This document shows, in pieces, positions 233 to 15,163 of a stretch of 17,945 nt of DNA. This stretch comes from Candidatus Nanohalarchaeota archaeon. GTDB taxonomy: Archaea; EX4484-52; B79-G9. The translations under genes were made by a program, and so were the position numbers. Position 1 is the stretch's first letter; each line of letters begins with the position of its first letter. The stretch covers positions 1-17,945 of the forward strand of contig JAFCBV010000002.1 in assembly GCA_017610545.1 (NCBI GenBank). Reading direction: 5' to 3'. The notes beneath the pieces were generated by a model. It saw nothing but the letters and a program-made list of their open reading frames with translations. It made no database searches and was not told where the DNA came from.

Positions 233-297
233 GTAATTTGGCGGAGAAATAGTTTTTTTGTGCCAAAACAACTTGGTCTGTGTAATTGCCTTTCTGA

Positions 298-308
298 GTA
301 TATATACA
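298..308 (-). promoter_or_regulatory. TATA-like element upstream of the small protein gene
   Basis: The minus strand reads TGTATATATAC here, in the 3' spacer after the 335-895 gene. Transcription would start near 277, giving a leader of roughly 45 bases to the ATG at 232 or a near-leaderless TTG at 271. A/T-rich alternating runs are easy to find by chance, so support is modest. Confidence 0.35.
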
Positions 309-334
309 TTTGTATTCTTGAGACAATATATTTG

Positions 335-895
335 TTAGTCCTCAAAAAAGCCCATTGGAACCCATTCATCCCCAGATTTTTCTTTTTTGCGATCAACCTC
401 GCTTTTTTGCGCAGGTATTATTGGAGCAGCAACAGGTTGCGTGGCTGTAACAACAGGACTTTCCGGCAAAAATTCCCTTTTAACAGGCTCTGTTTTTGGA
501 TAAAGTGGTGCTGCAGACCGTTCGAACACATTGATGTTGTGGGGGGCTGCTGTTGCTACTGCTGTCGGGGTTGCAGCTATGGTGGTGGCTGCGTATGGTT
601 GGTGCCTGGGTTGGTATGCCTGTTTTTTAGGGGTTTTGTCAGAAAAATAGTTGAGCAAAACATCAAACTTTGAGTTTTTTGTGTTTGTATTTGTTTTTTT
701 CTCTGTTTGTGATTCATATTCGTAGTGGTTTTCTTTGTCCTCAATGCGTACATAATCTTTTCTGTTTTTTTTGCGCGCTGATGAAAAAGACGCTTTATAG
801 CGGCGTTTCTGGGTGTGTATCATATGGGCGCAGCAGAAACCGGCGATAAATGACACAAGCGCAACAAAAGCCATAACAATATCAAAAGCAGCCAT
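335..895 (-). CDS. Single-pass membrane protein with low-complexity P/A/T-rich tail, function unknown
   Basis: The 186-residue product begins with one hydrophobic segment (about residues 5-27, containing a Cys-Cys pair at 21-22). A strongly basic stretch (HTQKRRYK onward) follows, which by the positive-inside rule puts the tail in the cytoplasm. Residues about 50-75 are charged and Asn/Thr-rich, and about 90-165 are a disordered-looking Ala/Thr/Pro-rich region. The C-terminus is the more ordered DEWVPMGFFED. I see no N-x-S/T sequon, so it is not an obvious glycosylation substrate. The ATG at 895 has a GTGAT motif shortly upstream. The gene diverges from the reductase gene at 956, and the A/T box at 927-935 could serve both. 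I do not recognise the family. Confidence 0.7.
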   Translation of the reverse strand: MAAFDIVMAFVALVSFIAGFCCAHMIHTQKRRYKASFSSARKKNRKDYVRIEDKENHYEYESQTEKKTNTNTKNSKFDVLLNYFSDKTPKKQAYQPRHQPYAATTIAATPTAVATAAPHNINVFERSAAPLYPKTEPVKREFLPESPVVTATQPVAAPIIPAQKSEVDRKKEKSGDEWVPMGFFED

Positions 896-926
896 GAAAT
901 ATCACATGTATTAATGGGCCGTCCAC

Positions 927-935
927 TTTATTTAG
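927..935 (+). promoter_or_regulatory. TATA-like box for the geranylgeranyl reductase gene
   Basis: TTTATTTAG lies with its centre about 25 bases upstream of the ATG at 956, which argues that 956 is the real, leaderless start rather than the longer frame from 914. Its complement (CTAAATAAA) lies about 36 bases from the divergent ATG at 895 and could also serve that gene. Confidence 0.5.
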
Positions 936-955
936 CTTTTGGTTCAATGATTCTT

Positions 956-2008
956 ATGTATCGGGCACAGGTTTCAATTATTGGTGCAGGCCCTATTGGT
1001 TCATATCTGTCTAAAAAGCTTGCTCAAAAGGGAATTGGTACGGTTCTTATCGACAGAAAAAATACGGTTGGCAAATATGCGTGTTCGGGACTCATCAGCA
1101 AGAGGATAACCTCGTTTGTCCGGATGAATGGTGCATTTCTTGAGCATAAAATAGATGGTGCTGTTTTTCATTCTCCAGATAATTCGTTTACCCTGAGGCG
1201 AAACACAACACAGGCATATGTTGTTGACAGGCCGCTTTTTGATAAGCACCTTTTTTCAGAGGCTGTGCGTGCAGGGGCTAAAACGTTTCTTGGCGCGCCG
1301 GTTGAAAAGATCTGTGTTTTGAAAGATGCTGTTGAATGCACTGCCGGGCAAGAAAAAATCACATCAAAAATGGTTGTCGGTTGCGACGGAGCATGCAGCT
1401 TTTTGAGAGATCATCTTGGCTTTCCCGGGAAAACACGTCTTGTAAACGGAATAATGTCCTATGTGGATGAATGCAACAGTTCGTCTCTTGTAGAGCTATA
1501 TTATGGCAAACGCGTTGCTCCCGGATTTTTTGCATGGAAAATACCGCGCGGAAAAAGAACAGAATATGGCCTTGCAGCAAAAGAAAACCACCTATTTTAT
1601 TTTAAAAAATTCCTTTCGTCGCAGGGGGTTTTGTTTGAGAAATATTATGCGCATCCGATTGTTTTCGGTGAGCAGGAATCCTGCAAGGAGCGGGCAATTC
1701 TTGTCGGCGATGCAGCAGCCCAAGTTAAGCCGTTTTCCGGTGGTGGGTTGATTTATGGCTTTATTTCTGCAGACATTGCTGCTCGTGCCATAAAAAAAGC
1801 ATTTGACAAAGATGATTTTTCAAAAGAGTTTTTTCAAAAAGAGTATGAATCGCGCTGGCACAAAAAACTTCTTTCAAAAATACGTATTGGAGGCGCGCTT
1901 AGGGGTATTTTGGATTCTTTAGATAATTCAGAACTTGACGCGCTTTTTGGGGCGTTATCTGAAGAGAAAAAATCTATGGAACAGATTGGGGATATGGATT
2001 TTTTGTAG
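956..2008 (+). CDS. Geranylgeranyl-reductase-family FAD-dependent oxidoreductase
   Basis: This flavoprotein family saturates double bonds of isoprenoid chains, such as archaeal membrane lipids or the dolichol carrier. Visible signatures are the N-terminal FAD-binding beta-alpha-beta motif GAGPIG (residues 10-15, ending in an acidic residue in VLID), the family's CSGLIS motif (43-48), the central VVGCDGACSFLR, and the second FAD motif VGDAAAQVKPFSGGGLIYG (from about residue 250). Starting at 956 gives MYRAQVSIIGAGPIG, the usual short lead into the FAD motif, and matches the promoter position. An ATG at 947 or the frame opening at 914 are alternatives. At 350 residues it is slightly short for the family. 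It converges on the aglH-like gene. Its place beside aglB/aglH makes dolichol saturation an attractive substrate guess, but phospholipid reduction is equally possible. Confidence 0.85.
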   Translation: MYRAQVSIIGAGPIGSYLSKKLAQKGIGTVLIDRKNTVGKYACSGLISKRITSFVRMNGAFLEHKIDGAVFHSPDNSFTLRRNTTQAYVVDRPLFDKHLFSEAVRAGAKTFLGAPVEKICVLKDAVECTAGQEKITSKMVVGCDGACSFLRDHLGFPGKTRLVNGIMSYVDECNSSSLVELYYGKRVAPGFFAWKIPRGKRTEYGLAAKENHLFYFKKFLSSQGVLFEKYYAHPIVFGEQESCKERAILVGDAAAQVKPFSGGGLIYGFISADIAARAIKKAFDKDDFSKEFFQKEYESRWHKKLLSKIRIGGALRGILDSLDNSELDALFGALSEEKKSMEQIGDMDFL

Positions 2009-2010
2009 TG

Positions 2011-2066
2011 CAAACTTTTCTTTACTGCGCCGCCAATTGGTTTGATGGCTTGCAAAGAAAAGTTTG
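2011..2066. terminator. Perfect 13-bp inverted repeat between convergent genes, probable bidirectional terminator
   Basis: CAAACTTTTCTTT at 2011-2023 is perfectly inverted at 2054-2066, with a 30-base loop containing the palindrome CCAATTGG (2033-2040). It begins two bases after the reductase stop codon. Because the arms are inverted, both converging transcripts read the same U-rich CUUUUCUUU sequence, which suits archaeal U-tract termination. The terminator role is inferred; the repeat is seen. Confidence 0.5.
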
Positions 2067-2226
2067 ATCAAAAGAAAGATGCCTGCGGCAGCATACCGTA
2101 TGGCTAAAATTGGATATTGGTTCTGTTCAAACGTTCTTAGTTTCATCCATCAACATATATTTATTGGATGAGAGAACACAGGCAATGAAAAACAAGGTGT
2201 GCTCCGATATGGGTCTGCGTGATGTC

Positions 2227-3228
2227 TTATAGATACAGGCAAAACGCAAGGGCGCACATCACGGCTTCAAAGCAGAGGACGGAAAGCACAACTTTCTTTT
2301 CTGTTGCATGAAAAAACTTCATTGGTATGTGGGTCAGGGAGTTTATTTCGTTGTCAGGCGCATTCAAAGTCCCGTTCTTTTGCAGTATGCCGAAGCTTTC
2401 GGCACGAAACATTTTTTTTGCCTTTAGCGCAAACTCAATAAACCAGGGGAAAAAGGCAACCAGTGCGAATCGTTCAATGTTTCCTATTATTGCAACTGAT
2501 GCGGCAGCTGCGCCAATTGTATAGTCAAGGCTGTCTCCCGGAAATATTTTTGCAGGAGACCAGTTGTAGCGAAGAAACGCGATAAGTGATGATGCGAAAA
2601 TAAGTGCGATAGCAGCAGCCACAAAGGATCCGTTGATATATGCAAAAATGCCGAGGGACCCAAGAAGTAGAATCCCGAGGCCTGCGCTTAGCCCGTTTAG
2701 CCCGGCAAGCATGTTTGTTGCATTTGCAGCACCGAAAACAGCGATTGGGACAATAACTAATGGATAAAGCACACCAAGATTTATGTCTCCTAAAAGGGGA
2801 AGGTAAATTGTTGAGACTCCGGCGTTCACTGCCATTAGAGGTACGGCAGCAGGAAGCGGCAAAAGGAACTTGTGTCTTTGGCGAAAGCCCAGTTTTTTGA
2901 CAAAAGAGCCCGTAGTTTTTTTGCGCGGCAAAAGGGATGTCAGGTCATCAAGCATACCAATCATTGTTATGAGTGTTATTGTGAGTGTTGCTGCAAGAGC
3001 TTTTGTGACATCCACATCCATTACAAATACTGCTGATGCAATGAATAACATCATCCCAAGTATGAATCCTATGAGTGCAACGAAGCCACCCATTTCAGCA
3101 ACTTCTGGCCTGCCTTTTTTATGTATGTCCTGCCCGGTTATGCCAATATTTCTGAAGAACGAAATTATTTTTGGTGCAACAAGATATGTTGCAAGAAACG
3201 CTGCAGCGGCAGACAAGAATAAATACAT
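2227..3228 (-). CDS. aglH: UDP-GlcNAc:dolichyl-phosphate GlcNAc-1-phosphate transferase-like (glycosyltransferase family 4, AglH/Alg7 type)
   Basis: This polytopic membrane protein (333 aa) belongs to the MraY/WecA/DPAGT1 family, which transfers a sugar-1-phosphate from a UDP-sugar to polyprenyl or dolichyl phosphate, the first step in lipid-linked glycan assembly. Motifs in order: KKGRPEVAEMGGF (37-49), the Mg-binding GMLDDL (Asp94-Asp95), NATNMLAGLNGL (169-180), FPGDSLDYTIGA (229-240), and a C-terminal HIPMKFF loop. The AGLNGL version, in place of bacterial DGLDGL, resembles eukaryotic Alg7 and archaeal AglH. The sugar may be GlcNAc but is not proved by sequence. The ATG directly abuts the aglB stop codon (TAAATG), so the two are surely co-transcribed and probably translationally coupled. 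Confidence 0.85.
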   Translation of the reverse strand: MYLFLSAAAAFLATYLVAPKIISFFRNIGITGQDIHKKGRPEVAEMGGFVALIGFILGMMLFIASAVFVMDVDVTKALAATLTITLITMIGMLDDLTSLLPRKKTTGSFVKKLGFRQRHKFLLPLPAAVPLMAVNAGVSTIYLPLLGDINLGVLYPLVIVPIAVFGAANATNMLAGLNGLSAGLGILLLGSLGIFAYINGSFVAAAIALIFASSLIAFLRYNWSPAKIFPGDSLDYTIGAAAASVAIIGNIERFALVAFFPWFIEFALKAKKMFRAESFGILQKNGTLNAPDNEINSLTHIPMKFFHATEKKVVLSVLCFEAVMCALAFCLYL

Positions 3229-5643
3229 TTACTCAGCCTTTTGATAGATTTGCTCATTTCCGTCATAAACCCGAAGACCCGAACCATCAGAGTATATCCC
3301 CCACCAGGGTAAAAGTGCTTCCCGTGAGTTGTGCTCTATTTCATGGTTTATTTCGTAAATCATGACTTCTCCATTATCAAACACCTTGTTTGCATAAGAA
3401 ATATCTTTTCCATTCATGAAAAAGAGATTTGTGAATGCGGAGTTTGCAACATCACCACTTGCAAACAGAGCGTATCCCTGGCCAAGGAAAACGCAGCCGT
3501 CAATTATCTCTTTGTTTTCCGGGGGGTTCATTGGAAATATTCCGTTTTCAGTGCAGACGGATGAAATGTATACTTCTCCTCCGGGTACGGACATAACGAT
3601 TTGCCCTGCAAGGTTTCCATATTCATTTATGGGTACGAGCAAAATGTATGGGTTTGCGGAAAATGCGACAATTGTGATATTTCCCCGTATTTCGCTGCTT
3701 GCCTGCCCGAAGTGGAGGTATGCGTCAATTTTGTTGCCATAGTTTGCAATCTTGGACATTGCAGAGTATTTTCCAATCATTGAGGCATCAAGAAGAATGT
3801 GTGTTGTGCCCATCTTTTCGAGGAAGAATTTTTGCTCGGTTTCATTCATCATGCCTGTAAAATACTGCGCTGTCGGTATGTTGCGTGCTGCTATGCTGTT
3901 CCCTCCATCGAGATTGGTTGCTCTTTCACTCATTAGCTGGAACCAGTATCCATAGTCCCACCAGGACAATATAACTGAATCGGGCGCAGATTCAGTTTTC
4001 ATGAAATTCATTGCTTCAGCCCAGTTCGCGTTATAATGAGAACCCATGTTTTTTGCCATGACACTTCCTGCAGAAAAGTTGACAAATAGAAACAGGCATA
4101 TTATGAGTGCGCCGGCTGCGGAATAGACATTTATTGCAGAGTCTTTTTGCGCACGGAATATTTTTGCTCTGGCTAAATATGAGATTATGTTTGATATGCC
4201 GTATGCTGCTGCAAGTGCTATAAAGGGCCCTACCATGAAAATCATGCGTATGTAAGACATTGCACCAAGCATGGATACAAAAAGAAGTGAGAACAGCAGA
4301 GATGCCAGATAATTCTTTCTTGAGACAAGCAGGATTGCGGCAACAAAAGAAGCCACGAATAGCGGTTGGTATGTTGCTTTTGCAGCAGCTTCTGTTGTTT
4401 TCAGAAAGGCCCAGAAACTATACACCATGATTGCAGATGCTGTATTTGCAAGCCAAAATTCGATATCCTTTTTTTCATAAATTTTGTAAAGAAAAATAAA
4501 GAGCCCTAAAAACCCAATTGCCCATACATCAAACAGGTGGTTTCTTATTAACAGTGCAACAGACGGGACAGCTCCTTGTGCATACGCGGCTCCAAGTTGG
4601 TTTGAAAAAGCATCCCATGTCGGAGGAATGTTTTCTGCCACAGTTGAGCTTATCACACCATGCTGATAAAACAAATAGCCTTGAGCTGACATAAGCAGTC
4701 CGGCAATCTTTGATGAGACAAAACTGCCCACCATAAGGAATACGATGCCTGCGCCGTATATTGATGGTACAACAAGGCGAAGCTTCTCTTTGGCGACAAA
4801 AGAATATTTTTCTGCGAAATATCGTATTGAGAGAATTCCAAGAGCTGCGAGATTCAAAAGAGAATATATTGTCTGTATTTTTGTGAAATTTGTGAGATAT
4901 GCAGACAGCACAACTCCGATTAAAACAACAGGAACATATGTTTTGTACAATCCTTTTGGTGCCTTGTCAACAAGCAAAATCATGAGCACGAATATGGAAT
5001 ATCCAAGGAACAACTGCTGTACTCCACCCCACATTGTTGCAAGGACAAACAAAGAAAGGCCTGAGACGGTTCCTGAAAGCAAAGAATTGTTTTTGATTGC
5101 GCGAATGAAAAAGTAAAGAGAAATCATCATGAAAAACGTTGCCTGAACCTCTTTTTCCATATACCATGCAGAGTTTCTTGCAATAATTGCAGGAATGACT
5201 GCGAAAAAGAATGCTGAGAATAAACCTGTTATCCTGTTGTGCAATTCCTTGCCTATGAAGTATATTGGTATTAGTGTCAGGGCGCCGATAAGTGCAGGGA
5301 ACCACCATGCAAAATGAGCATATTCCTCTGCTATTAGGCTCGTGCCTGTAAGAAGGGCATATGCGATAGATGGAAAATAATAGACTCCAAGATATTCGCT
5401 GCTCATGTCGATATTTGTTGGATAATACCTTTGAGGATCGACTCCAATGATGTGGAAATTGTTTGTCAGAACATGTTCAGACATACGAAATATGTAATAT
5501 GTGTCGATATCCGGGTAGTACGGCGAGTAGGCAGATTCCATTCTAATCGAAAATGCCATGTATAGTGCTGCAATCAGAAGAATTGCCGGAAACATTTTCA
5601 TTGCAAGAGCTCTATCAAAAACAATTTTGTTATCTTGCGTCAT
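3229..5643 (-). CDS. aglB: Dolichyl-(di)phosphooligosaccharide--protein glycosyltransferase (STT3/AglB)
   Basis: AglB is the single-subunit archaeal oligosaccharyltransferase. It moves a lipid-linked glycan onto Asn of N-x-S/T sequons on the outer face of the membrane. The 804-residue product has an N-terminal region of about a dozen membrane spans and a soluble C-terminal domain beginning near residue 515. Catalytic signatures are all present: the first acidic loop motif DID (45-47), the second motif EKE (163-165), the TIxE-like TVAE (334-337), the family signature WWDYG (561-565), and a DK-type motif starting at Asp619 (DASMIGKYSAM). The ATG at 5643 lies about 32 bases from a TATA-like TTTAAAAG on the same strand. 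The aglH-like gene follows without a gap. The DUF362 gene diverges upstream. Confidence 0.95.
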   Translation of the reverse strand: MTQDNKIVFDRALAMKMFPAILLIAALYMAFSIRMESAYSPYYPDIDTYYIFRMSEHVLTNNFHIIGVDPQRYYPTNIDMSSEYLGVYYFPSIAYALLTGTSLIAEEYAHFAWWFPALIGALTLIPIYFIGKELHNRITGLFSAFFFAVIPAIIARNSAWYMEKEVQATFFMMISLYFFIRAIKNNSLLSGTVSGLSLFVLATMWGGVQQLFLGYSIFVLMILLVDKAPKGLYKTYVPVVLIGVVLSAYLTNFTKIQTIYSLLNLAALGILSIRYFAEKYSFVAKEKLRLVVPSIYGAGIVFLMVGSFVSSKIAGLLMSAQGYLFYQHGVISSTVAENIPPTWDAFSNQLGAAYAQGAVPSVALLIRNHLFDVWAIGFLGLFIFLYKIYEKKDIEFWLANTASAIMVYSFWAFLKTTEAAAKATYQPLFVASFVAAILLVSRKNYLASLLFSLLFVSMLGAMSYIRMIFMVGPFIALAAAYGISNIISYLARAKIFRAQKDSAINVYSAAGALIICLFLFVNFSAGSVMAKNMGSHYNANWAEAMNFMKTESAPDSVILSWWDYGYWFQLMSERATNLDGGNSIAARNIPTAQYFTGMMNETEQKFFLEKMGTTHILLDASMIGKYSAMSKIANYGNKIDAYLHFGQASSEIRGNITIVAFSANPYILLVPINEYGNLAGQIVMSVPGGEVYISSVCTENGIFPMNPPENKEIIDGCVFLGQGYALFASGDVANSAFTNLFFMNGKDISYANKVFDNGEVMIYEINHEIEHNSREALLPWWGIYSDGSGLRVYDGNEQIYQKAE

Positions 5644-5670
5644 AGGTACCCTGCAAAACTTGACGCCAAC

Positions 5671-5690
5671 CTTTTAAATGCTTTATTAAT
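5671..5690. promoter_or_regulatory. Divergent promoter region between aglB and the DUF362 gene
   Basis: Two A/T boxes lie side by side in the 69-base spacer. On the minus strand TTTAAAAG (5678-5671) is centred about 32 bases from the aglB ATG. On the plus strand CTTTATTAAT (5681-5690) is centred about 27 bases from the ATG at 5713, which would make that gene leaderless. The first box (CTTTTAAAT) could also act on the plus strand. Confidence 0.5.
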
Positions 5691-5712
5691 TTGCGCAACC
5701 TTATTATTTTTT

Positions 5713-6783
5713 ATGAAATCTTCTTGTGTTGCAGTTCTTTCCACAAAGCCGAAAACAGTTATTAAAGACTATGCGCGCTTGATGGAGCTTGCAGAGTACA
5801 AAAAAAGCATTTCAAAGAGAAGGGAACTTGCGTTAAAGCTAAACCTTTCATGGTCTCTTTATTATCCTGCCTGCTCTACAGAGCCGTGGCAGCTAGAGGG
5901 AGTTCTTTCTAAACTGAAGGCAGACGGCTATAAGAAAATCCTTCCTGTTGAGAATAAAACCGTTGTGACAAACCCGTGGAAAGGGGCACGGCAGAACAAG
6001 TGGCTTCCAATAATCGAAAAACATGGCCTTAAGTTCCAGCCACTAACAGATGTTTCCTGGAATGTATATACGCCAAAGGCAGACACACCTGCAATTGATG
6101 CGATATTTCCGGAAGGGCTTAAAATCCCGGATATGTTTCGCGGAAAAGATGTTATGCACCTGCCGACACAGAAATGCCATGGGCATACCACAATAACAGG
6201 GTCTATGAAAAACGCATTCGGAGGCTTGATAACCGAGCGAAGGCATCACAGCCACAAGATGATTCACGAGGTGCTGGTAGATCTTCTTTCAATACAGAAG
6301 GAGATACATCCGGGTATTTTTACTGTGATGGACGGCACTGTCGCCGGCAATGGTGCCGGCCCAAGGACAATGGAGCCTGTTATCAAAAACAATATTCTGG
6401 CATCTTCAGATTCTGTTGCAATTGACGCCGTTTCTGCAAAGATGATGGGATTTGACCCAATGAAAATACCGTTCATAAAGATTGCGCACGACAAAGGCCT
6501 TGGTTGCGGGGATGTTTCACAGATAGATGTGGTTGGAAAAAGCATCAAGAATGTGAACTACCGGTTTCACACAGGAAAAAGCCCTGTTGTGTTCTGGGAC
6601 CAGATGTTTCGAAAAAAGCTGCCATTTATTGAGCCACTATTGTTTCACACTCCACTGTTTCGCCTTTGCGTTCTTGGCTCGGCATTGTATCATGACAATC
6701 TTTGGTATCCTCTTATCGGGAAAAAGAAAATAAGTGCCTTTGAAAAGACAGAGTGGGGAACCTTATTTCAAAAATATGCCTGA
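5713..6783 (+). CDS. DUF362 domain-containing protein
   Basis: Family DUF362 has no settled biochemical function; some members carry ferredoxin domains, but this one does not. The 356-residue product shows the family's landmarks: an N-terminal acidic region followed by ACSTEPWQLEGVLSKLKADG, the central GHTTITGSMKNAFGG motif (from residue 157), DGTVAGNGAGP (from 207), and ASSDSVAIDAVSAKMMG then GLGCGD near the end of the domain. The frame is open from a TTG at 5635, but that would overlap the aglB start. The ATG at 5713 fits both the family and a TATA box 27 bases upstream. The stop overlaps the next gene by 8 bases, so it forms an operon with the flippase-like gene. Its presence in a glycosylation locus is suggestive only. 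Confidence 0.8.
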   Translation: MKSSCVAVLSTKPKTVIKDYARLMELAEYKKSISKRRELALKLNLSWSLYYPACSTEPWQLEGVLSKLKADGYKKILPVENKTVVTNPWKGARQNKWLPIIEKHGLKFQPLTDVSWNVYTPKADTPAIDAIFPEGLKIPDMFRGKDVMHLPTQKCHGHTTITGSMKNAFGGLITERRHHSHKMIHEVLVDLLSIQKEIHPGIFTVMDGTVAGNGAGPRTMEPVIKNNILASSDSVAIDAVSAKMMGFDPMKIPFIKIAHDKGLGCGDVSQIDVVGKSIKNVNYRFHTGKSPVVFWDQMFRKKLPFIEPLLFHTPLFRLCVLGSALYHDNLWYPLIGKKKISAFEKTEWGTLFQKYA

Positions 6784-7702
6784 TACCATGAATAAAAACG
6801 TATCACGGGTTCTTGTTTTTGGCCTGCTTTTAGTGGTAATTATTCTAAGCGGACCGCAAAAAATAATATCATCCCTGCTTTTGTTTCGCCGCGATTTGAT
6901 AGTTCCTATAATTTTGCTGTCCATTGCAAATTTCATAACGCGCTTTGTTCGCTGGGAGCTTATTACAAAATGTGTTGGAATAAAAATCCGGCTGAAGGAG
7001 AGTGTATTGATTTTCTTTTCTTCATTTCTTTTTAGTATTGCACCCGCAAAAAGCGGAGACCTGATAAAGCCATATTATCTCAAAAAATATACAGGTACAA
7101 AGTATGCATTGAGCCTTCCGGTCATTTTCCTTGAGAGAGTTTTTGATGTTCTTGGAATAATCCTGCTTATTTCAGTTTCCGGCGCGCTCTATTTTGGCGA
7201 AGTTGTTCTATTTGCATTGTTTTTTGGAATTATTATTGCAACGCTTTTTATCGAAACAATTGTCAGCTTGCTTCTGAAAAAGAATTGTATGGCTTTTTTC
7301 GGAAAGCGGGGGGCGCACATTAAAGAGGCACTTCGTACATCAAAAGAACTTTTTTCAAGAAGGATCTCGCTTGTTTCGTTATTCCTGGGGGTAAGCGCAT
7401 GGTTTTTTGAGTGTGCGGGCCTTTATCTTGTAGTTAGCGGCTTTGGGGTATCTGCGGACATCATTCGTGAGACCCTGATTTATTCTGCAGCCACGCTTGG
7501 GGGTGCGGCCAGCATGCTTCCCGGAGGCCTTGGAGCAACAGAAGGCGGCATGGCGTATCTTTTGTCAAGTTTTGCGAGTACGCCTGTTGCTGTGTCTGTT
7601 TCTATAACGTTTGTAATACGGGCACTTACACTATGGATTGCAGTTCTTATCGGATTTTTTGCAAACCTTATGCTTGTGCGTACAGAACCGCAAAAGAAAT
7701 GA
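6776..7702 (+). CDS. Flippase-like membrane protein (UPF0104 / lysylphosphatidylglycerol synthase TM-region family)
   Basis: The 308-residue product is almost entirely hydrophobic with about eight membrane spans. Diagnostic motifs are APAKSGDLIKPYYLKK followed by SLPVIFLERVFDVLG in the first half, and SMLPGGLGATEGGMAYLL (from about residue 246) in the second. Members of this family include the membrane part of bacterial MprF, which flips modified phosphatidylglycerol, and the C-terminal part of haloarchaeal AglD. A role in moving a lipid-linked sugar across the membrane is therefore reasonable but inferred. ATG 6776 overlaps the DUF362 stop by 8 bases; ATG 6788 is an alternative, and neither has a clear Shine-Dalgarno site, which suggests coupling. 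The 3' end overlaps the convergent ubiA-like gene by 35 bases. Confidence 0.85.
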   Translation: MPDTMNKNVSRVLVFGLLLVVIILSGPQKIISSLLLFRRDLIVPIILLSIANFITRFVRWELITKCVGIKIRLKESVLIFFSSFLFSIAPAKSGDLIKPYYLKKYTGTKYALSLPVIFLERVFDVLGIILLISVSGALYFGEVVLFALFFGIIIATLFIETIVSLLLKKNCMAFFGKRGAHIKEALRTSKELFSRRISLVSLFLGVSAWFFECAGLYLVVSGFGVSADIIRETLIYSAATLGGAASMLPGGLGATEGGMAYLLSSFASTPVAVSVSITFVIRALTLWIAVLIGFFANLMLVRTEPQKK

Positions 7703-8522
7703 GCGCCCATAATATGAACGCGAAAAACAATTGTTTGTCAAAAAACAGTCTGTGCGCCTGTCTTGCAGCAATATTTCCTGCAACGGCAAAATGCATGAAC
7801 CGAAAGCACATGAAGCTGACCACCGGAATGGATGCCATCATATATCCTTCAGGATACGCAAGAAAAGCATAAAGGCTGTATGCGACAATCACTGTTGCTC
7901 CGCTTACGTATAATATCCCGCGAAGAAAATCTTCTGTATATACCACGTATAAGCTGTTTTTTTTTGCAGTGCTTCCAAGTGCAATTTTGTCAGACATTCT
8001 TTTTCCTGATGCAAGGAAAAGCGCTACGAAAAACATGCTAAAGACAAGCCAGGGGGATATGGGCGCATCAATCAGGACGGCCCCTGAGACTGCGCGTATC
8101 AGAAAGTTAATTGCAACGATGTGTATATCTACAATAGCAATTTGCTTCAGATAAAAAGAATACAAGGCGCTTAACGCGAAAAGCGCTGATGCAAATAAGA
8201 AGAATGGAATTGAGAGCGAGTGTGCGAGATAAAGTCCGGTAATAAGTAGTGTGCCCGAAAGTGCTATAGCGTCCCTTTTTGTCACACGTTCTGTTGCAAG
8301 CGGGCGGTGCTTTTTTTCGGGGTGCGCCCTGTCAAGGGCGATGTCTTTTAGGTCATTTAGAATGTAGTATGATGAAGACACAAGCGAGAGCGATGCAAAG
8401 CCGAGCAGGGTTTTTACAAGCAGGCTTGTATTGAAAAAATTTACAGAGAACACGAGCGCAAGAAATACGAGACTGTTTTTGTACCATTGTTCCGGCCGCA
8501 TTAGCTTGAGATATGGATTCAT
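7668..8522 (-). CDS. UbiA-family prenyltransferase, decaprenyl-phosphate phosphoribosyltransferase-like
   Basis: The 284-residue product has the UbiA fold with about eight or nine membrane spans. Its signatures are those of the mycobacterial Rv3806c (DPPR synthase) branch, which joins phosphoribosyl pyrophosphate to a polyprenyl phosphate, rather than of quinone or lipid UbiAs: N-terminal MRPEQWYKNSLVFLA (8-22) and the Asp-rich NDLKDIALDRAHPEKKHRP (56-74). The second cytoplasmic motif is YSFYLK (121-126) and D132 with the Arg-containing helix after it. In this locus it may make a polyprenyl-phosphate pentose donor, but no DprE1/DprE2-like epimerase is visible. Start ATG 8522 has GGAG about ten bases upstream. 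The 112-base leader region contains the C/D-box RNA. It overlaps the convergent flippase-like gene tail to tail. Confidence 0.85.
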   Translation of the reverse strand: MNPYLKLMRPEQWYKNSLVFLALVFSVNFFNTSLLVKTLLGFASLSLVSSSYYILNDLKDIALDRAHPEKKHRPLATERVTKRDAIALSGTLLITGLYLAHSLSIPFFLFASALFALSALYSFYLKQIAIVDIHIVAINFLIRAVSGAVLIDAPISPWLVFSMFFVALFLASGKRMSDKIALGSTAKKNSLYVVYTEDFLRGILYVSGATVIVAYSLYAFLAYPEGYMMASIPVVSFMCFRFMHFAVAGNIAARQAHRLFFDKQLFFAFILWALISFAVLYAQA

Positions 8523-8542
8523 TCAAATACTGCTCCAATTAG

Positions 8543-8605
8543 TGGCATCAGACCGCCCATCAGTCATCAAAAGTCAGACAAAAAAAATAGCGTCATCATC
8601 TACCA
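8543..8605 (-). ncRNA. C/D-box guide sRNA (predicted 2'-O-methylation guide for 16S rRNA helix 44)
   Basis: All elements of an archaeal dual-guide C/D RNA occur in order on the minus strand: terminal stem TGGTA (8605-8601), box C ATGATGA (8599-8593), a 15-base first guide (8592-8578), box D' CTGA (8577-8574), a short spacer, box C' TGATGA (8569-8564), a 12-base second guide CTGATGGGCGGT (8563-8552), box D CTGA (8551-8548), and stem partner TGCCA (8547-8543). The stem pairs over five positions with one U.G. The second guide pairs with the conserved 16S segment ACCGCCCGUCA over 11 positions (one G.U). The D+5 rule targets the equivalent of E. coli C1402. A TATA-like box ends about 20 bases upstream. 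The first guide, with eight consecutive U, has no target I can name. Confidence 0.9.
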
Positions 8606-8624
8606 AGCATAGTTTTTATGGGAT

Positions 8625-8634
8625 GATTAAAAAG
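8625..8634 (-). promoter_or_regulatory. TATA-like box for the C/D sRNA
   Basis: The minus strand reads CTTTTTAATC directly after the wecB stop codon (8637-8635). The box centre is about 25 bases before the first stem base of the guide RNA, so the predicted transcript start coincides with the RNA's 5' end. The same transcript could continue into ubiA. Confidence 0.5.
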
Positions 8635-9759
8635 CTATTTCTTTGCTGAAATTTCCTTTTTGCATGCATCAACAATCTTTTTTGCGCTTTTGCCGTCGCC
8701 AAACGGGTTTTTGGCAGACATCACTTTTTTGTAAAATCCTTTTTTCTGCTGTATTTCGTCAACATACTTTAGTGCAAGTTCGTAGTTGTTTCCAACCAAT
8801 ACTGCACTTCCTGCGCGGACTGCTTCCATGCGCTCTGTGTTTTTTCTCCAGACAATACAAGGGACTTTAAGGACGCAGGTTTCTTCCTGCAGGCCACCTG
8901 AGTCAGTTACCATACAGATGGAGTTTTTCATTACTTTCATAAACTCAAGATAGTCATAAAATGGCACTGCTTTAACGTTTTTCATGGCGTTTAGTTCTTT
9001 TTCAAGCCCGAAATCATGAATCTTTTGCATGAGTGTCGGATGCTCAAGAAATATTACTTTTTCTTTAACGCCTTTGATGAATTGGAAAATGTTTTTAATT
9101 GTCTCTTTTGTATGGACGTTTTCCTGTCTATGTATGAAGACAACAACATATTTTTTTGGGAGTTTAGCGCGCGCTTTTTCAGCCAATTTTTTGTGGATTG
9201 ATATTGCGTCAACAATGGTGTTTCCGGTAAGTATTATTTTTCCATGTATCTGGCACTCTTTTTTTAGATTTTTGGCAGAGTCCTCTGTTGCGGCAAAAAG
9301 AAGGTCGCTTGCTTTGTCTGCAATAACTCTTGCGATTTCTTCGGGAAATGGATTAAACAATTCATGCGTCCTAAGCCCTGCTTCAATGTGCCCGAGAACA
9401 GGGCGCTTTGAAACAAGCCTGCCGGCAATAGAGGCAGATGCGATGGCAAGGGTGTCGCCCTGGTAGAGAAGAACTTCTGGATTTTCTTTTTTGATTATTT
9501 TTCTTATTTCTCTTGCAATAACAAAGCTCCACTTTGCTGCCCGAAAAATCCCTGACGCAAGGCCTCCTTTGAATTTTCCTGCGGATTCGGGCGGAAGGTC
9601 AAGAACATAATCCGGCTTTCGTATTTTCAGGTCTGCGAGTAAGGAATCTAAATTGTGCTGCCCTGTATGCACAAGAATGGTTTGTATTTTTCTTTTTTCA
9701 AGTTCTTTGATTACAGGGTCTACTTTGATTATTTCCGGGCGCGTTCCAAAAACAAGCAT
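8635..9759 (-). CDS. wecB: UDP-N-acetylglucosamine 2-epimerase, non-hydrolysing
   Basis: This cytosolic enzyme interconverts UDP-GlcNAc and UDP-ManNAc. Family motifs: GTRPEIIK (5-12), VHTGQH (30-35), GDT (101-103), HIEAGLRTHE (124-133), FPEE (138-141), GNTIVDA (179-185), HRQENV (210-215) and DSGGLQEE (286-293), covering the acidic and His residues used in catalysis and UDP binding. Length (374 aa as given) is normal. The ATG at 9759 leaves an unusually short lead before GTRPE. A CTG at 9768 would give MKFMLVFGTRPE and has AGGTGAT just upstream, so it may be the true start. The gene follows wecC by 17 bases, last in the asnB-to-wecB operon. Together with WecC it would make UDP-ManNAcA. Confidence 0.93.
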   Translation of the reverse strand: MLVFGTRPEIIKVDPVIKELEKRKIQTILVHTGQHNLDSLLADLKIRKPDYVLDLPPESAGKFKGGLASGIFRAAKWSFVIAREIRKIIKKENPEVLLYQGDTLAIASASIAGRLVSKRPVLGHIEAGLRTHELFNPFPEEIARVIADKASDLLFAATEDSAKNLKKECQIHGKIILTGNTIVDAISIHKKLAEKARAKLPKKYVVVFIHRQENVHTKETIKNIFQFIKGVKEKVIFLEHPTLMQKIHDFGLEKELNAMKNVKAVPFYDYLEFMKVMKNSICMVTDSGGLQEETCVLKVPCIVWRKNTERMEAVRAGSAVLVGNNYELALKYVDEIQQKKGFYKKVMSAKNPFGDGKSAKKIVDACKKEISAKK

Positions 9760-9776
9760 GAATTTCAGGGAATCAC

Positions 9777-11030
9777 CTATTTAACCGGGTTTCCTATGCT
9801 TTTGTAGATGAATCCTGGTGGTGCAGAAGAGAGAAGGTTTCGCCCGTCGACAATTACTGGTTTTGTGTTCATTTTTTCTTTCATATTTTTCCAGTCAACA
9901 CTTTTGTATGCAGAGTGCGCTGTTGAAATGATTATGGCATCAGCGCCTTCAACAGCAGAGCCAATATCAGAAACAACAGGATATGCGAATCTTTTTACGA
10001 GGGGGTCGTGGACAACGACATTTGCTTTGTTTGAAATTAGGATTTCGGCGAGTTTTTCTGCAGGGCTTTCGCGCGCGTCATCAACATCCGGCTTGTATGC
10101 GGCGCCAAGCAAAACGACTTTCGCGCCTTCAATACTTTTTCCTGCAGAATGAAGGGCGTTTTTCAGCAGATGAATTGTGTGTTCTGGCATTGATTCATTT
10201 ATTTCTAAGGCTGTTTTTACCAGCGGCGCGTTTTGCCCGTGAATCAGAAAATACGGGTCTACAGGGATACAATGCCCTCCGACACCGGCTCCGGGGGCAT
10301 GGATGTTTACGCGAGGGTGCTTGTTTGCAAGGGAGATGACGTCTTTCACATTGATTCCAAGATTCTCTGAAAGAAGCGCAAGCTCATTTGCAAAGGCAAT
10401 GTTCACTGAACGAAATGTGTTTTCTGATAGTTTTGCTACTTCAGCAGTAACTGTGCCTGCCAGAAGAAGACCTCCTTTGCAGAATGACGCGTAAAGCTCT
10501 TTTGTAAGTTCTTTTCCTTTTTCGGTGTCAGACCCGATTATTCGGTCATTGTTTACGAGCTCAAAGATGAGGTTTCCAGGGAATGCGCGCTCAGGGCAGT
10601 GCGCGAGATAAAAATCAGCATCTGCTTTCATGTTTGTCTTGTTTTCAATAATTTTTCCAATTGATTCGTGTGTGGCTTTAGGCATAACAGTCGATTCAAG
10701 AATTACCAGGTTTCCTTTTTCAACAAGCGGTGCGATGGCATTTGCAGCAGACTCGACATAGGAGTTGTCAGGAGCCTTGTTCTTTAGGGGCGTTGGCACA
10801 CAGATTACAAATACATCTGCTTTTTCGGGGCTCTTTTTTACAACAAGATTTTTTTTGGCGGACGTGAAAAGCTCTTCAAAGCCAGGTTCATTCAATTTGA
10901 AAGAGCCATTGTTTATGCTGTTTACACGTTCCTCGCTTATATCAACCCCGGTGACATTATGCCCTGCTTTTGCCATGAGGCATGCTGTTGGAAAGCCGAT
11001 GTATCCAAGACCGATTACGCACACTTTCAT
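9777..11030 (-). CDS. wecC: UDP-N-acetyl-D-mannosamine dehydrogenase (UDP-sugar 6-dehydrogenase family)
   Basis: The enzyme oxidises C6 of a UDP-sugar twice with NAD+, here most likely UDP-ManNAc to UDP-ManNAcA. Visible are the N-terminal NAD motif GLGYIG (7-12), TPLKNKAPDNSYVESA, ILESTVMPKAT, HCPERAFPGN (the ManNAc/GlcNAc dehydrogenase type), KLSENTFRSVNIAFANEL, the catalytic Cys254 in GAGVGGHCIPVDPYF, and the C-terminal UDP-binding LLGAAYKPDVDDARESP. Length (417 aa) is normal. Substrate choice among UDP-HexNAc sugars rests on the adjacent wecB. The start overlaps the previous stop by one base (TAATG). Confidence 0.92.
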   Translation of the reverse strand: MKVCVIGLGYIGFPTACLMAKAGHNVTGVDISEERVNSINNGSFKLNEPGFEELFTSAKKNLVVKKSPEKADVFVICVPTPLKNKAPDNSYVESAANAIAPLVEKGNLVILESTVMPKATHESIGKIIENKTNMKADADFYLAHCPERAFPGNLIFELVNNDRIIGSDTEKGKELTKELYASFCKGGLLLAGTVTAEVAKLSENTFRSVNIAFANELALLSENLGINVKDVISLANKHPRVNIHAPGAGVGGHCIPVDPYFLIHGQNAPLVKTALEINESMPEHTIHLLKNALHSAGKSIEGAKVVLLGAAYKPDVDDARESPAEKLAEILISNKANVVVHDPLVKRFAYPVVSDIGSAVEGADAIIISTAHSAYKSVDWKNMKEKMNTKPVIVDGRNLLSSAPPGFIYKSIGNPVK

Positions 11031-13144
11031 TAGGACGCCTCTTTTATCTGCTTTGCAACATCAAATGAGATTTTTGTTGCAAGCACGCATTCTTCAAGAG
11101 TGAGCCCTGCACTTGCTTCGCCTTTTATTGCTTTTGCGAATGCTTTTAGTTGGTTCATTTGACCTTTGTCCTGCCCGATTATTTTGAATCCTCCGCCGGC
11201 ACCGAAGACCGAGAGTTCGCGAAAGTCATTTATGACGCACGACACACCGCCGCGGGAAATCTCAATTCTCTCTTTTGGCAAGTCTTTATTTCCGGTACTT
11301 GTGTAGACAAGTGTTGCAATCGAGCCGTCCTTGTATTTGATGCAAGAGACTACATTGTCTTCAGAATGGAAAGAATGTTCTTTGGAATTGACAGAATGCG
11401 CATTTACCGATTCTGTTTCAGATCCTATGAAAAAATTAAATGCATCAAAAAAGTGGCATCCTTCACCTATTATTCTTCCGCCGCCGTCTTTTGCGTCATA
11501 AGTCCAGTGGTCGCTTGGCAGGAGCCCTGCATTGACGGTGTATGTGATTATATACGGGCCTTTTTTTGTTTCAAGAATCTCTTTTGCTTTTATGGCAAAA
11601 GGTGAAAATCTCCTGTTAAAGCCAACCATGTAATGTACTTTGTTTTTCTTTACTGCGCGCACAACGCGGTTCATGTCCTTTTCGTTTAATGCCATGGGCT
11701 TTTCAACGAAAATATTTTTTTTTGCATTTGCGGCAGCAACCGCTATTTCAGCGTGGTTTCCATGCCTTGTTGCAATAATTACAAGATTAACGTTTTTGTC
11801 AGAAAGTGCGTCTTTGTAGTCTGTGAACGCCCATACTGCTTTGTATTGCTTTGCAAGTTGCTTCGCATCCTTGCCGTTGTGTGTGACTATGGCGCGCACT
11901 GTGTAGTCGTCTATTGCTTTTAGGTTTGGAAGATGATGGGCTTTTGCATAGTTTCCGGCTCCAATTAGTGCAACATTAATTTTTCCTTTTTTTAATGGCA
12001 CTATTGAGACGTGTATTTTTCTTTCGGGCTGCTTCTTTTTAGTGTACCTGAAAACAGAGGTTATTACGTCCTTGCCAAGTGAGTTGTACGCCTCTTGCGC
12101 GCGATTAATTGGGTATGTTGCGCTTATCAATGGCTTTACATCAACAGCGTTTTTCGAGAGTAATTTAACGAATGCCTGCATGTTTCTGTTTTCTGTCCAG
12201 CGTACATATCCTATAGGGTAGTCTATGCCTTCGTCTTCGTATTTTCGGTCATATCTTCCGGGACCGTATGATGTTGAGATAAGAAAATCAATTTCTTTTT
12301 TGTAGAATGTTTCGCGTTGTATGTTCATGCCGACATCCCCGACAACAACAACGCGCCCCTTTTTTCGGCACATGTGCATTGCCTGGTTGGCAGGAGCATC
12401 ACTTTTTGTGGCAGCAGTTATTATTACAGCGTCTGCGCCTATGCCTTCTGTGAAGCTGGTGACTTCTTTTAATGGATTGTTTTTTGGTGGTGTGGCGGTG
12501 GCATCCGCACCAAGTGATTTTGCAAGAGCACACCTTTTTTGGTCAAGATCTATTCCAAGAACGCTACATCCTGCGGCTTTGAGTATCTGGACTGAAAGAA
12601 GGCCTATTAATCCGAGGCCTACAACAACAACAGTTTCACCCAGTTTTGCGCCTGCCCTGCGTACACCCTGCATAGCTATGCTGCCGACCGTGGTGAATGC
12701 TGCATGCTCAAACAGCACGTTGTCAGGCAGTTTCACGGCGAGGTTTTTTGGAACATAAATATATTCTGCGTGGTTGGCGTATTTTGCCCCTGCACAGGCA
12801 ACGCGGTCTCCTATCGAGAATTCTGTGACGTTTTTCCCAACTTCAATAACAATGCCTGATGCGCTATAGCCTAACACAAGAAGATCTGAAAGCCGGGATT
12901 GCACAAGTTGCCTTGCTTTTTTGATTCCGGACTGTTTTGCGTATGTCATGACTTTTTTAACAAGATCCGGCCTCTCTTTTGCAAGTGAAATAATGCTTTT
13001 TTTGCGCGAGGATATTGAGTGAAGCTCTGTTCCGGGGCTTATGAGTGAGCACACATTTCTTACAAGAATGCCGTTGTCCTGGCAGACAGGGGCCGGCACA
13101 TCTTCAACTATGATATTTCCTTTTTTCCCAAAAACCTGTTTCAT
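11030..13144 (-). CDS. Two-domain oxidoreductase: zinc-less MDR-type dehydrogenase fused to Gfo/Idh/MocA oxidoreductase
   Basis: The 704-residue product joins two NAD(P)-dependent modules. Residues 1 to about 375 are a medium-chain alcohol-dehydrogenase-like domain with VVVVGLGLIGLLSVQIL as its nucleotide motif (about 165-180). Where zinc-dependent members carry the catalytic Cys, this one reads SLISPGTEL (33-41). From about 390 a Gfo/Idh/MocA domain begins with INVALIGAGNYAKAHHLPNL and contains the lysine motif VEKPMALNEKDM (near 478). Such fusions are known from polysaccharide clusters next to heparinase II/III genes; substrates are generally unknown, and sugar oxidation or epimerisation is an inference. 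The ATG at 13144 overlaps the upstream stop (ATGA). The longer frame to 13189 adds 15 unlikely residues. Confidence 0.88.
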   Translation of the reverse strand: MKQVFGKKGNIIVEDVPAPVCQDNGILVRNVCSLISPGTELHSISSRKKSIISLAKERPDLVKKVMTYAKQSGIKKARQLVQSRLSDLLVLGYSASGIVIEVGKNVTEFSIGDRVACAGAKYANHAEYIYVPKNLAVKLPDNVLFEHAAFTTVGSIAMQGVRRAGAKLGETVVVVGLGLIGLLSVQILKAAGCSVLGIDLDQKRCALAKSLGADATATPPKNNPLKEVTSFTEGIGADAVIITAATKSDAPANQAMHMCRKKGRVVVVGDVGMNIQRETFYKKEIDFLISTSYGPGRYDRKYEDEGIDYPIGYVRWTENRNMQAFVKLLSKNAVDVKPLISATYPINRAQEAYNSLGKDVITSVFRYTKKKQPERKIHVSIVPLKKGKINVALIGAGNYAKAHHLPNLKAIDDYTVRAIVTHNGKDAKQLAKQYKAVWAFTDYKDALSDKNVNLVIIATRHGNHAEIAVAAANAKKNIFVEKPMALNEKDMNRVVRAVKKNKVHYMVGFNRRFSPFAIKAKEILETKKGPYIITYTVNAGLLPSDHWTYDAKDGGGRIIGEGCHFFDAFNFFIGSETESVNAHSVNSKEHSFHSEDNVVSCIKYKDGSIATLVYTSTGNKDLPKERIEISRGGVSCVINDFRELSVFGAGGGFKIIGQDKGQMNQLKAFAKAIKGEASAGLTLEECVLATKISFDVAKQIKEAS

Positions 13145-15156
13145 ACACACACCTTTATGGTCGTCCTGAATTTTGCCGGAAGTACACACTTTTTTGTTAC
13201 TTTTAGTGTTTTGGATTCGGTCTTCCTGCCATAACTATACGAGACAAAATCTTTAATAAGTTCTATTTTTGCATCTTTCGGGGATTCTATTTCGAGGGCG
13301 ATGTTGGTTCCTTTGGTTTTGGTTCTGAGCATGTTTTCTTTAATTGTCAGGTGCATGGGCGCAAAATGAAAGTAAAGGGCAATGTCGTGGGTTCCGTTGC
13401 CGGTTATTTCGTCTTCTATGTGCCAAACACCCTTCTTTTTTTCAGCAGTTATTTTTCTTTTCACGAGGGCGTTTCCAAGGCGTTTATATCCTTCGTGCTG
13501 TCCGGCAAAGAGGTCTTTGTCTTTTCCAGGGTTCCAGCGAATGAGTTTTGCGGTGGTTATGTCTTTGATGTGCCACAAGTCATTTGCGCTAAAGGGCGCC
13601 ATTTCCTTGTTATCAATTTCGATTGTGTTGTGGGATGAAGTTTTTCTGAATCGTGCGCGTCCTACACAATCCCTACTGTACGTATATGTCCCTGAATCGG
13701 TTATGAATGTCTTGTCTCCGGCAAAAAGCTCAAAACTTAATGTGTCGTTGTGGCCGTGGCCTCCAAGTCCTTTAAGTCCAAGGCCGCCGCAGTCAGCAAA
13801 AAGGTAATTGTTTTTATTCCTTGAAATGAAAAAGCCGCCATCACGAAAGCCCGTTGATTTTAGTTCTTCTGATTTTTGTTTTCGAAATTGCTTTTTGCCG
13901 CTTGTTCCAAGAAGCCAGAGTGACTCTTCGTGGAATTTTCCTGCCTGTTTTTTAAGAAGGCTGTTTTTGAAAAGGACAACTCCTGTTGAAAGATGATGCC
14001 TGTGGTCATTCAGGTCTTTATTTTCTTCAAGGATGACGAGGCGTCCATCATCTGCGTCACCAATCATTGGCGCTATGCCGTCTGGTTTTACGTAGTGCGC
14101 AATAAATTCCAGCATCTTAAGAAGCTTTTTGCCAAACCACGCTGGTAGAGGTATTTTGTTTTTCTTGCAGAGAATGTGTGCGTGAATCGCGAAGTCAGAC
14201 ACAAGGCGGTGGTATGCTGTTGATTTCTCAAAGTCCACGCCATCGGCAAGAATCTGATTTTTCATGGAGTTCAGAATAATTTCAACTCCTTTGTCTTTCC
14301 ATTGTTTGCTTTCTTTGAATGGTTCTATGAAAAATCCGACATACAGAAGCCCGATACCGTTTGAAAAATAGTGGTTGCCGCTGTATGTGCTGTTGTATTC
14401 TAAATTGTCCTCAATATGCTTTGCATGAAAGTAGAGGCTCTTGAACATCTTTATTTTTAGTTCATCTGAAAATGATTTTGATTTTTTGAAAAAATGATAT
14501 GCCCAAATCCAGTTGACTGCGCGGATTGCGACTTCCATTGAGGTCGTCCAGTTTACAGAGAAGCCAACAGGATTTTTTTCTATCCAGTCATCAAGTTCAT
14601 CTGCAAATTCCTTTGCATATTTTTCATCATTTGTGTACCAGTACGCTTTTCCAAGAGTTATGAAATGCTGGCAACGTGAGAGTTCCCACGGGATTTTTAC
14701 ATCAGAGCCGTCAAAGCGCACTGTTTTTATGTCTTTGTAGTATTTGTTGTCCCATGATTTTCCTGAAACGAAATCTTTGTTCCAGGGGATTTCTTTTTCA
14801 AGATTTGTCTTTCCGCTTCCAAGAAGGTCGAATTCATGCCTGAGTACGTTTTCTGCTTTTTTTAGGGTTTTGTTTTTTTCATCGGAGTGTTTTTTTAGTG
14901 TATTCAGGAGGTCTTTTTTGTCTTTTTCAGAGAAGAAAAACCAGTTATTTGATTCTATTTCTGTGATGACTTTTTCTAGTGAAGGCTCTCCTGTTTTTTT
15001 AAGAAGTTCTGAATCGCTCATTTTTGGCAGGCTAAAAGAATACCTTATTTTTCTGGCTTTGTGCATGACGTGCTTTTTCGCGCGCCTTGCAAGTTCCTGT
15101 GCCACGAACTTCGGCGGCAGGCTTCTTGCTTTTTTTGCTTTTGATATTAGTGACAT
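13141..15156 (-). CDS. Heparinase II/III family protein (alginate-lyase-like N-terminal domain)
   Basis: The 671-residue product has the (alpha/alpha)-toroid lyase N-terminal domain, with PWELSRCQHFITLGKAY (near 155), WTTSMEVAIRAVNWIWA, and SGNHYFSNGIGLL (near 260, the catalytic Asn/His region). A DGVDFEKSTAYHRLV Tyr/His segment and GDADDGRL come next. The C-terminal heparinase II/III beta domain contains GLGGHGHNDTLSFELF (near 465). The family cleaves uronic-acid polysaccharides by beta-elimination. In exopolysaccharide clusters the homologues are often linked to synthesis. The N-terminus is basic (AKKARSLPPKFVAQELARR) and shows no signal peptide, so an intracellular or membrane-peripheral role is suggested. 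It follows asnB by 7 bases and overlaps the next gene by 4. Confidence 0.88.
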   Translation of the reverse strand: MSLISKAKKARSLPPKFVAQELARRAKKHVMHKARKIRYSFSLPKMSDSELLKKTGEPSLEKVITEIESNNWFFFSEKDKKDLLNTLKKHSDEKNKTLKKAENVLRHEFDLLGSGKTNLEKEIPWNKDFVSGKSWDNKYYKDIKTVRFDGSDVKIPWELSRCQHFITLGKAYWYTNDEKYAKEFADELDDWIEKNPVGFSVNWTTSMEVAIRAVNWIWAYHFFKKSKSFSDELKIKMFKSLYFHAKHIEDNLEYNSTYSGNHYFSNGIGLLYVGFFIEPFKESKQWKDKGVEIILNSMKNQILADGVDFEKSTAYHRLVSDFAIHAHILCKKNKIPLPAWFGKKLLKMLEFIAHYVKPDGIAPMIGDADDGRLVILEENKDLNDHRHHLSTGVVLFKNSLLKKQAGKFHEESLWLLGTSGKKQFRKQKSEELKSTGFRDGGFFISRNKNNYLFADCGGLGLKGLGGHGHNDTLSFELFAGDKTFITDSGTYTYSRDCVGRARFRKTSSHNTIEIDNKEMAPFSANDLWHIKDITTAKLIRWNPGKDKDLFAGQHEGYKRLGNALVKRKITAEKKKGVWHIEDEITGNGTHDIALYFHFAPMHLTIKENMLRTKTKGTNIALEIESPKDAKIELIKDFVSYSYGRKTESKTLKVTKKCVLPAKFRTTIKVCV

Positions 15157-15163
15157 AGAACCA

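Follow-up and report, generated by a model that had tools for sequence, protein, structure and literature searches.

Does the 112-base spacer between a wecB-like gene and a ubiA-like gene in the genome of Candidatus Nanohalarchaeota archaeon contain a gene for a small RNA, and what would such an RNA guide? The spacer lies in a stretch of 17,945 nucleotides (contig JAFCBV010000002.1 of assembly GCA_017610545.1, positions 1 to 17,945 of the forward strand; hereafter the window). An earlier note, made from the letters of this stretch, had claimed that a complete C/D box guide RNA is hidden there on the minus strand. We compared the locus with related genomes, with their rRNA, and with known RNA families. 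The best explanation, which we hold with high confidence, is a C/D box sRNA, probably with its own promoter, whose D guide would direct methylation of C1402 in 16S rRNA (E. coli numbering) and whose D' half is probably structural only.

The spacer has the layout of an archaeal C/D box sRNA

We found a predicted 63-letter C/D box sRNA at 8605-8543, on the minus strand, between the wecB-like and UbiA-family genes (Table 1). Boxes C, D', C' and D follow one another in order, as in archaeal C/D box sRNAs, separated by guide-length spacers of 15 and 12 nt and closed by a terminal stem of 5 bp, one pair of which is G-U. All four boxes and the TGGTA/TGCCA stem were present as the earlier note had described them, and the length that it gave for the spacer agrees with the ORF limits (8635 and 8522).

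Table 1. Features of the predicted sRNA and its neighbors, in window coordinates
Feature	Position	Strand	Remarks
wecB-like UDP-GlcNAc 2-epimerase family gene, upstream	8635..9759	-	PF02350
TATA-like element CTTTTTAAT	8626..8634	-	immediately follows the wecB stop codon; box C lies ~35 nt downstream
Predicted RNA body with terminal stem	8543..8605	-	from boxes, Rfam matches and relatives
Terminal stem, 5' arm TGGTA	8601..8605	-	pairs with 8543-8547; 4 Watson-Crick pairs and 1 G-U
Single G between 5' stem arm and box C	8600	-	
Box C, ATGATGA	8593..8599	-	
D' guide region CGCTATTTTTTTTGT, 15 nt, with eight-T run	8578..8592	-	no supported target; position of the helix-27 (G902) guide in other genera
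Box D', CTGA	8574..8577	-	
Linker CTTT	8570..8573	-	between boxes D' and C'
Box C', TGATGA	8564..8569	-	
D guide CTGATGGGCGGT, 12 nt	8552..8563	-	11 bp with 16S ACCGCCCATCA; N+5 = C1402 (E. coli numbering)
Box D, CTGA	8548..8551	-	
Terminal stem, 3' arm TGCCA	8543..8547	-	
UbiA prenyltransferase family gene, downstream	7668..8522	-	PF01040

In the window, the four boxes in strict arrangement are found once; none of 400 order-1 Markov randomizations contained them on either strand, in keeping with the claim that a chance arrangement is very unlikely. The genome has one other strict C-D'-C' match. It (C67) lies inside a 769-aa ORF, and we take it as chance. The fold energy of the RNA was ordinary (z -1.36; 20 of 200 shuffles were equally good). 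A C/D RNA does not have to form a stable fold by itself. ARAGORN found no tRNA in the window.

A covariance search had been proposed in the earlier note as a check. Five archaeal C/D families of Rfam (sR2, sR3, sR12, sR5 and sR1) all matched inside the RNA on the same strand, but none reached its gathering score. sR2 (RF01139) scored highest, with 28.2 bits (threshold 42; E 0.0087 for the window as a whole); it has the same box layout, its guides differ, and the score falls short of membership. The score of sR12 (RF01147) was 19.3 bits against a threshold of 38, also short of membership. Because of this score, and because the consensus guides of the model are not GAYGGGCG, the RNA is not filed in RF01147, a model that is named sR12 and may not equal the sR12 of PMC3511168. 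Low scores were common for RNAs of this kind. We sampled the two sets of loci described below. Of 20 contigs drawn from 30 loci of the first set, 1 had a C/D family at or above its gathering score (sR3 in L260), and of 18 drawn from the 116 listed loci of the second, 2 did (sR1 in two Archaeoglobi). This shows that annotation at Rfam thresholds overlooks many such C/D RNAs.

The RNA is conserved in a sister species and in other relatives

The one genome in which we found the same spacer is that of G001, a sister species of the same genus, in which wecB, the RNA and ubiA are in the same order. Alignment of the two spacers, another check that the earlier note had proposed, largely upheld the RNA: the sRNA was identical at 62 of 63 bases with its boxes intact, compared to 88% identity over a 2200-base alignment. 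The spacer was identical at 23 of 29 bases upstream of the RNA and at 18 of 20 downstream. The stem fared less well. The single change is a T to C in the outermost position, and the outermost pair becomes a C-A mismatch. The longest identical run was 72 bases (8604-8533) and covers the sRNA minus its first base; when the mismatch positions were shuffled 2000 times, 41 shuffles gave a run at least this long. We regard this run as modest evidence for the RNA, helpful and not decisive.

Beyond the sister species, the RNA was recognizable by its boxes and one guide. A first DNA-similarity search matched the full 74 bases only in the genome itself and in G001 (2 of 101). We also searched 41 genomes (its own, 33 from the same order and 7 further archaea) with the pattern TGATGANNGATGGGCGNNCTGA, allowing up to two mismatches. 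Exactly one match was found in each of 31 genomes, and a reversed-pattern control gave none; the pattern was absent from 10 of the 41, including 2 of 11 from the organism's own family. GATGGGCG was intact in all 31 matches, with mismatches confined to box C' and box D. Thirty of the matches could be read in context. Among these relatives the rRNA guide was the most conserved part of the RNA. Some of them have variant boxes, and conservation of the second guide stops at the genus. The expectation that boxes and second guide would both be conserved holds for the second guide in the sister species, where it is identical, but fails for other genera in the family and the order, which carry a helix-27 guide at that place.

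The RNA probably has its own promoter

Of 22 non-redundant loci, including that in the window, 17 have TATA-like words (picked after reading the sequences) at 40-31 nt before box C; elsewhere in the 150 nt examined they occurred in at most five loci per 10-nt bin. Since the TATA-like box stands at one distance in these loci, the sRNA probably has its own promoter, from which it would be transcribed.

Eight Ts lie on the coding strand within the RNA gene (in 8578-8592) and are identical in the two species. Such a T tract could terminate archaeal transcription early. This run, together with the position of the spacer upstream of ubiA and on the same strand, would also fit a cis element of ubiA (a leader, a terminator or an L7Ae-binding site) in place of an RNA gene. 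L7Ae has been suggested to regulate mRNAs (PMC5539422). We consider a cis element very improbable: among 30 loci, wecB or ubiA was found by tblastn in the surrounding 1.6-3 kb only in the organism itself and its sister species, and the part of the RNA that is most conserved is the rRNA guide. A regulatory leader of ubiA was rejected on the former ground, as neither gene lies in that surrounding stretch outside the genus.

The two genes are part of a glycosylation/surface-polysaccharide neighborhood that occupies 3229-15156 of the window. It contains genes for an STT3/AglB-like protein, an LPG_synthase_TM-family membrane protein, UbiA, UDP-GlcNAc 2-epimerase, a UDP-sugar dehydrogenase and a heparinase II/III-family protein.

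The D guide is complementary to the 16S rRNA of relatives at C1402

The MAG (a bin of 953 kb in 184 contigs, 82.65% complete, with 23 tRNA matches) had no 16S or 23S match, and the duplex was therefore tested on the 16S rRNA of relatives. In the family member G009, the decoding region has the sequence ACCGCCCATCAAACC. The D guide (CUGAUGGGCGGU) is paired to the segment ACCGCCCATCA of this 16S rRNA over 11 consecutive Watson-Crick positions, and alignment to E. coli rrsB identifies the nucleotide opposite N+5 as C1402. A published criterion for archaeal C/D guides asks for nine or more consecutive Watson-Crick pairs to rRNA across the N+5 nucleotide (PMC4644070), a number that the duplex here exceeds by two. 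The C1402 site was the best site for the D guide in the G009 16S, and none of 200 shuffled guides was as good. Results with other members of the order were similar: the best site was at E. coli 1402 in all seven 16S sequences (G009 among them). Five of the duplexes, including that of G009, had 11 Watson-Crick pairs, and two had 10 and one G-U; between 0 and 2 of 200 shuffled guides were as good at 1402. By functional class, we predict a Cm1402 guide (U43/snR70-type), since N+5 corresponds to E. coli C1402.

We compared guide position 8, which is U or C, to its partner at 16S position 1405, which is A or G. The duplex with G1405 keeps 11 pairs, one of them G-U. The computed duplex energies are -21.5 and -21.1 kcal/mol. 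G1405 was present in every one of the 15 genomes in which the guide has C8 and a 16S site was found. In contrast, the 15 genomes with a U8 guide had A in seven and G in eight (Fisher p 0.006 over all genomes, with kinship ignored). Seven of these U8 genomes (2 A, 5 G) came from a pattern set of 22 genomes. The other eight (5 A, 3 G) have both a 16S and an sRNA match; G025 and G036, with a 16S and no sRNA match, were omitted. For the pattern set we used 50 of 77 listed archaeal loci, comprising all 23 with C8 and 27 of 54 with U8 (those dropped were mostly Methanobrevibacter), and 22 of the 50 genomes gave the 16S site pattern, which is a pattern match and not necessarily within a whole 16S gene. 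In this set alone, A1405 was found in 0 of 15 C8 genomes and in 2 of 7 U8 genomes (p 0.09). As far as these sequences go, guide position 8 and 16S position 1405 change together.

Genes for fibrillarin, Nop5 and L7Ae are present in the genome. In the mechanism that we propose, the RNA would be transcribed from its own promoter between the wecB-like gene and ubiA, and its C/D and C'/D' motifs would fold as a k-turn and a k-loop and bind L7Ae. The bound RNA would recruit Nop5 and fibrillarin, the D guide would pair with 16S rRNA at about 1398-1408, and fibrillarin would methylate C1402 at its ribose, within the P-site portion of the decoding center. The anatomy of the boxes, the complementarity to the 16S rRNA of relatives with C1402 at N+5, the conservation in relatives and the presence of the protein genes all support the claim of a C/D guide RNA. 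Based on these results we infer that the RNA is probably transcribed, assembled into an RNP and active in methylation.

The bin contains two pairs of fibrillarin and Nop5 genes, on contigs C55 (L266) and C148 (L265). The pair on C55 is 98.6% (fibrillarin) and 88% (Nop5) identical to that of the sister species. The pair on C148, a contig of 3.5 kb, is 96% and 89% identical to that of G002, which is in the same family and a different genus. C148 probably strayed into the bin or was transferred recently.

The partner guide turns over

We found that the D' guide differs between lineages that share the D guide. It contains CAGCCTT in two other genera of the organism's own family (f1g2 and f1g3), in families f2 and f3, and in two DHVE2/Aciduliprofundum contigs. 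In one register, these guides can fall on helix 27 of 16S rRNA, at G902. G902 was the best tested 16S site for the guides of f1g2 (0 of 200 shuffles as good), f2 (2 of 200) and f3 (12 and 36 of 200); for f1g2 this requires reading box D' as TTGA. The guide of f1g3 was best at position 247, with 902 second, and the DHVE2 guide was evaluated on the 16S of a relative. We assign these guides to 902 because the same register recurs in the five lineages. The D' guide of Rfam sR60 (RF01309), UUCAGCCU, is the helix-27 guide of f1g2, f1g3, f2 and f3, which scored 21.8 to 34 bits with this model (threshold 50), but the D guide of sR60 is not the C1402 guide. sR60 did not match the RNA in the window at E up to 1. 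Other D' guides differed again. That of family f7 had its site at position 1197 (0 of 200 shuffles as good), and that of genus g6 in family f4 had no 16S or 23S site better than shuffles.

In the genus of the window, only the letters of CGCTATTTTTTTTGT that adjoin box D' still resemble the helix-27 guide. The duplex in the helix-27 register was computed at -3.3 kcal/mol, compared to -17.5 kcal/mol for the guide of family f2. We found no target for CGCTATTTTTTTTGT in the rRNA of relatives; over nine sequences, 10 to 96 of 100 shuffles were as good. These include three 16S sequences or pieces from the family (30, 41 and 10 of 100) and two 23S pieces from the family (66 and 62 of 100). There was also no target among the 23 tRNA matches of the incomplete bin (195 of 200 shuffles as good). 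Four tRNA matches in this genome (L216, L225, L226 and L228) have long intron-like inserts and were not called by ARAGORN.

We think it likely that the D' guide in the window is dead or dying. Apparently it either took the place of an ancestral helix-27 G902 guide or arose by decay of one, and the D' half would then probably be structural only in this genus. It is also possible that both guides work, and that the U-rich D' guide targets a missing tRNA, the rRNA of the genus itself or an mRNA. The guide is identical at 15 of 15 bases in the sister species, several other lineages have D' guides with 16S targets, and the MAG is incomplete, with no rRNA. However, 15 identical bases are unremarkable at 88% background identity, shuffled guides do as well on the family 16S and 23S and on the tRNA matches, and the helix-27 register leaves a short, weak duplex. 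We find two working guides rather doubtful.

The pairing of guides also bears on what the RNA does at the ribosome. Dual guides to sites that are distant in sequence and close in structure have been proposed to act as chaperones (PMC4644070), and the 902 and 1402 pair of the sister genera could fit this proposal. The RNA might then be mainly a folding chaperone or an antisense binder of the decoding region, not a methylation guide. In this genus, however, one arm has lost its complementarity and with it any bridging, whereas the arm with C1402 opposite N+5 has persisted and boxes D and D' are intact. We judge it improbable that binding or folding is the main role, and we retain methylation of C1402 as the predicted function.

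The C1402 guide is found in many archaeal lineages

We searched public contigs for the exact box-plus-guide pattern TGATGANNGAYGGGCGNNCTGA and found it in at least 116. Judging from the record titles of the 116 matches listed, 112 are archaeal and 4 bacterial. The archaea among the matches listed include Methanobacteria, Methanococci, Thermoplasmata, Archaeoglobi and Thermococci, as well as Methanofastidiosa, Hydrothermarchaeota, Altiarchaeota, Diapherotrites and Aenigmatarchaeota; no title among the 116 names Thermoproteota, Asgard archaea or Halobacteria. Methanogen counterparts include L149, labelled Methanothermococcus, and L151, labelled Methanocaldococcaceae. This set and the 41 genomes overlap (L080, L084, L109 and L117 appear to be contigs of G001, G067, G032 and G024, respectively), and L109 is labelled Nanohaloarchaea, though G032 belongs to the order of the window.

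Most of these loci have the full layout. Among the matches listed, four exact boxes in order were present in 92 of 116, none of them bacterial. The guide precedes box D in 81 of the 116 with four exact boxes and in 13 with one or two relaxed boxes (letters in C or D'). It precedes box D' in 11 with four exact boxes and in one (L083) that lacks an exact box D. The remaining 10, comprising all 4 bacterial and 6 archaeal contigs, have no recognized box set. One contig, L156, was classed by script as guide before D with relaxed boxes and is better read as guide before D'.

The 12 contigs with the C1402 guide before box D' are L067, L074, L083, L092, L101, L104, L123, L134, L136, L162, L165 and L166; ten are labelled Archaeoglobi or below, one Hydrothermarchaeum and one "uncultured archaeon". 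This placement indicates that the guide has swapped arms or arisen again.

In Methanobacteria (L056, L057, L066 and others), the partner guide is ACCCTATGAGCT in 18 of 67 sRNAs and closely resembles the D guide of Rfam sR41. Its complement, AGCTCATAGGGT, looks like the anticodon arm of tRNA-Met with C34 at N+5. If AGCTCATAGGGT is tRNA-Met, then one RNA would serve a P-site nucleotide of 16S rRNA and tRNA-Met.

These counts also weigh on the suspicion that the locus in the window is a chance arrangement or a decayed, unexpressed copy. Its scores below the Rfam thresholds and the outermost stem pair lost in the sister species would suit such a copy. Against this stand the absence of the arrangement from the 400 randomized windows, the single near-match in each of 31 of 41 genomes with none in the control, and the archaeal share of the contigs listed. 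On these three grounds we rejected a chance arrangement, and we regard chance or decay as having almost no likelihood.

Relation to known Cm1402 systems

The target of the D guide is a P-site nucleotide whose ribose is methylated in bacteria by a protein and in eukaryotes under the guidance of U43/snR70. One row of a published comparison aligns yeast 18S Cm1639, human Cm1703, Arabidopsis Cm1645, P. abyssi Cm1369 and E. coli Cm1402 (PMC11542601). In bacteria, RsmI, with RsmH, makes m4Cm1402 (PMC5053481; PMC11542601). The ribose methyl group and the nucleotide are the same as those predicted here, but RsmI and RsmH are protein enzymes that use no guide RNA. The eukaryotic U43/SNORD43/snR70 RNAs (Rfam clan CL00059) target the same nucleotide. 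They are eukaryotic RNAs, and the likeness shown here is that of the target.

Archaeal guides for this site have been predicted before. An archaeal sR12, from crenarchaea and euryarchaea (after Gaspin and co-workers), was predicted to act on the counterpart of the yeast snR70 site (PMC3511168), which is the same target, 16S C1402. The same source holds common descent of archaeal and eukaryotic C1402 guides to be consistent with the data and not provable, and leaves descent or convergence open. The main text of PMC4644070 names helix-44 predictions at E. coli 1408 and 1494, and 1402 is absent from it. In titles and abstracts, with few subscription journals covered, we found no C1402 guide in Aenigmatarchaeota and no pairing of 902 with 1402. 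The RNA in the window is thus an ordinary C/D sRNA, of a Cm1402 guide class already predicted in Pyrococcus and Sulfolobus. New are the occurrence in Aenigmatarchaeota, the wide distribution, and the turnover of the partner guide.

Tentatively, the Cm1402 guide may be one old archaeal gene, found from Euryarchaeota to DPANN and orthologous to U43/snR70, in which the 1402 half is constrained and the other guide is freely exchanged (helix 27 G902, tRNA-like, or the dead U-tract here). It may be among the last C/D guides kept in reduced genomes.

What makes this locus interesting is how widely the C1402 guide is distributed and how its partner is exchanged, not the mechanism. It provides a clear case in which one guide is kept while the partner turns over. 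The guide is recognizable across many archaeal lineages, including reduced DPANN genomes, and this provides material for the question of descent or convergence raised in PMC3511168.
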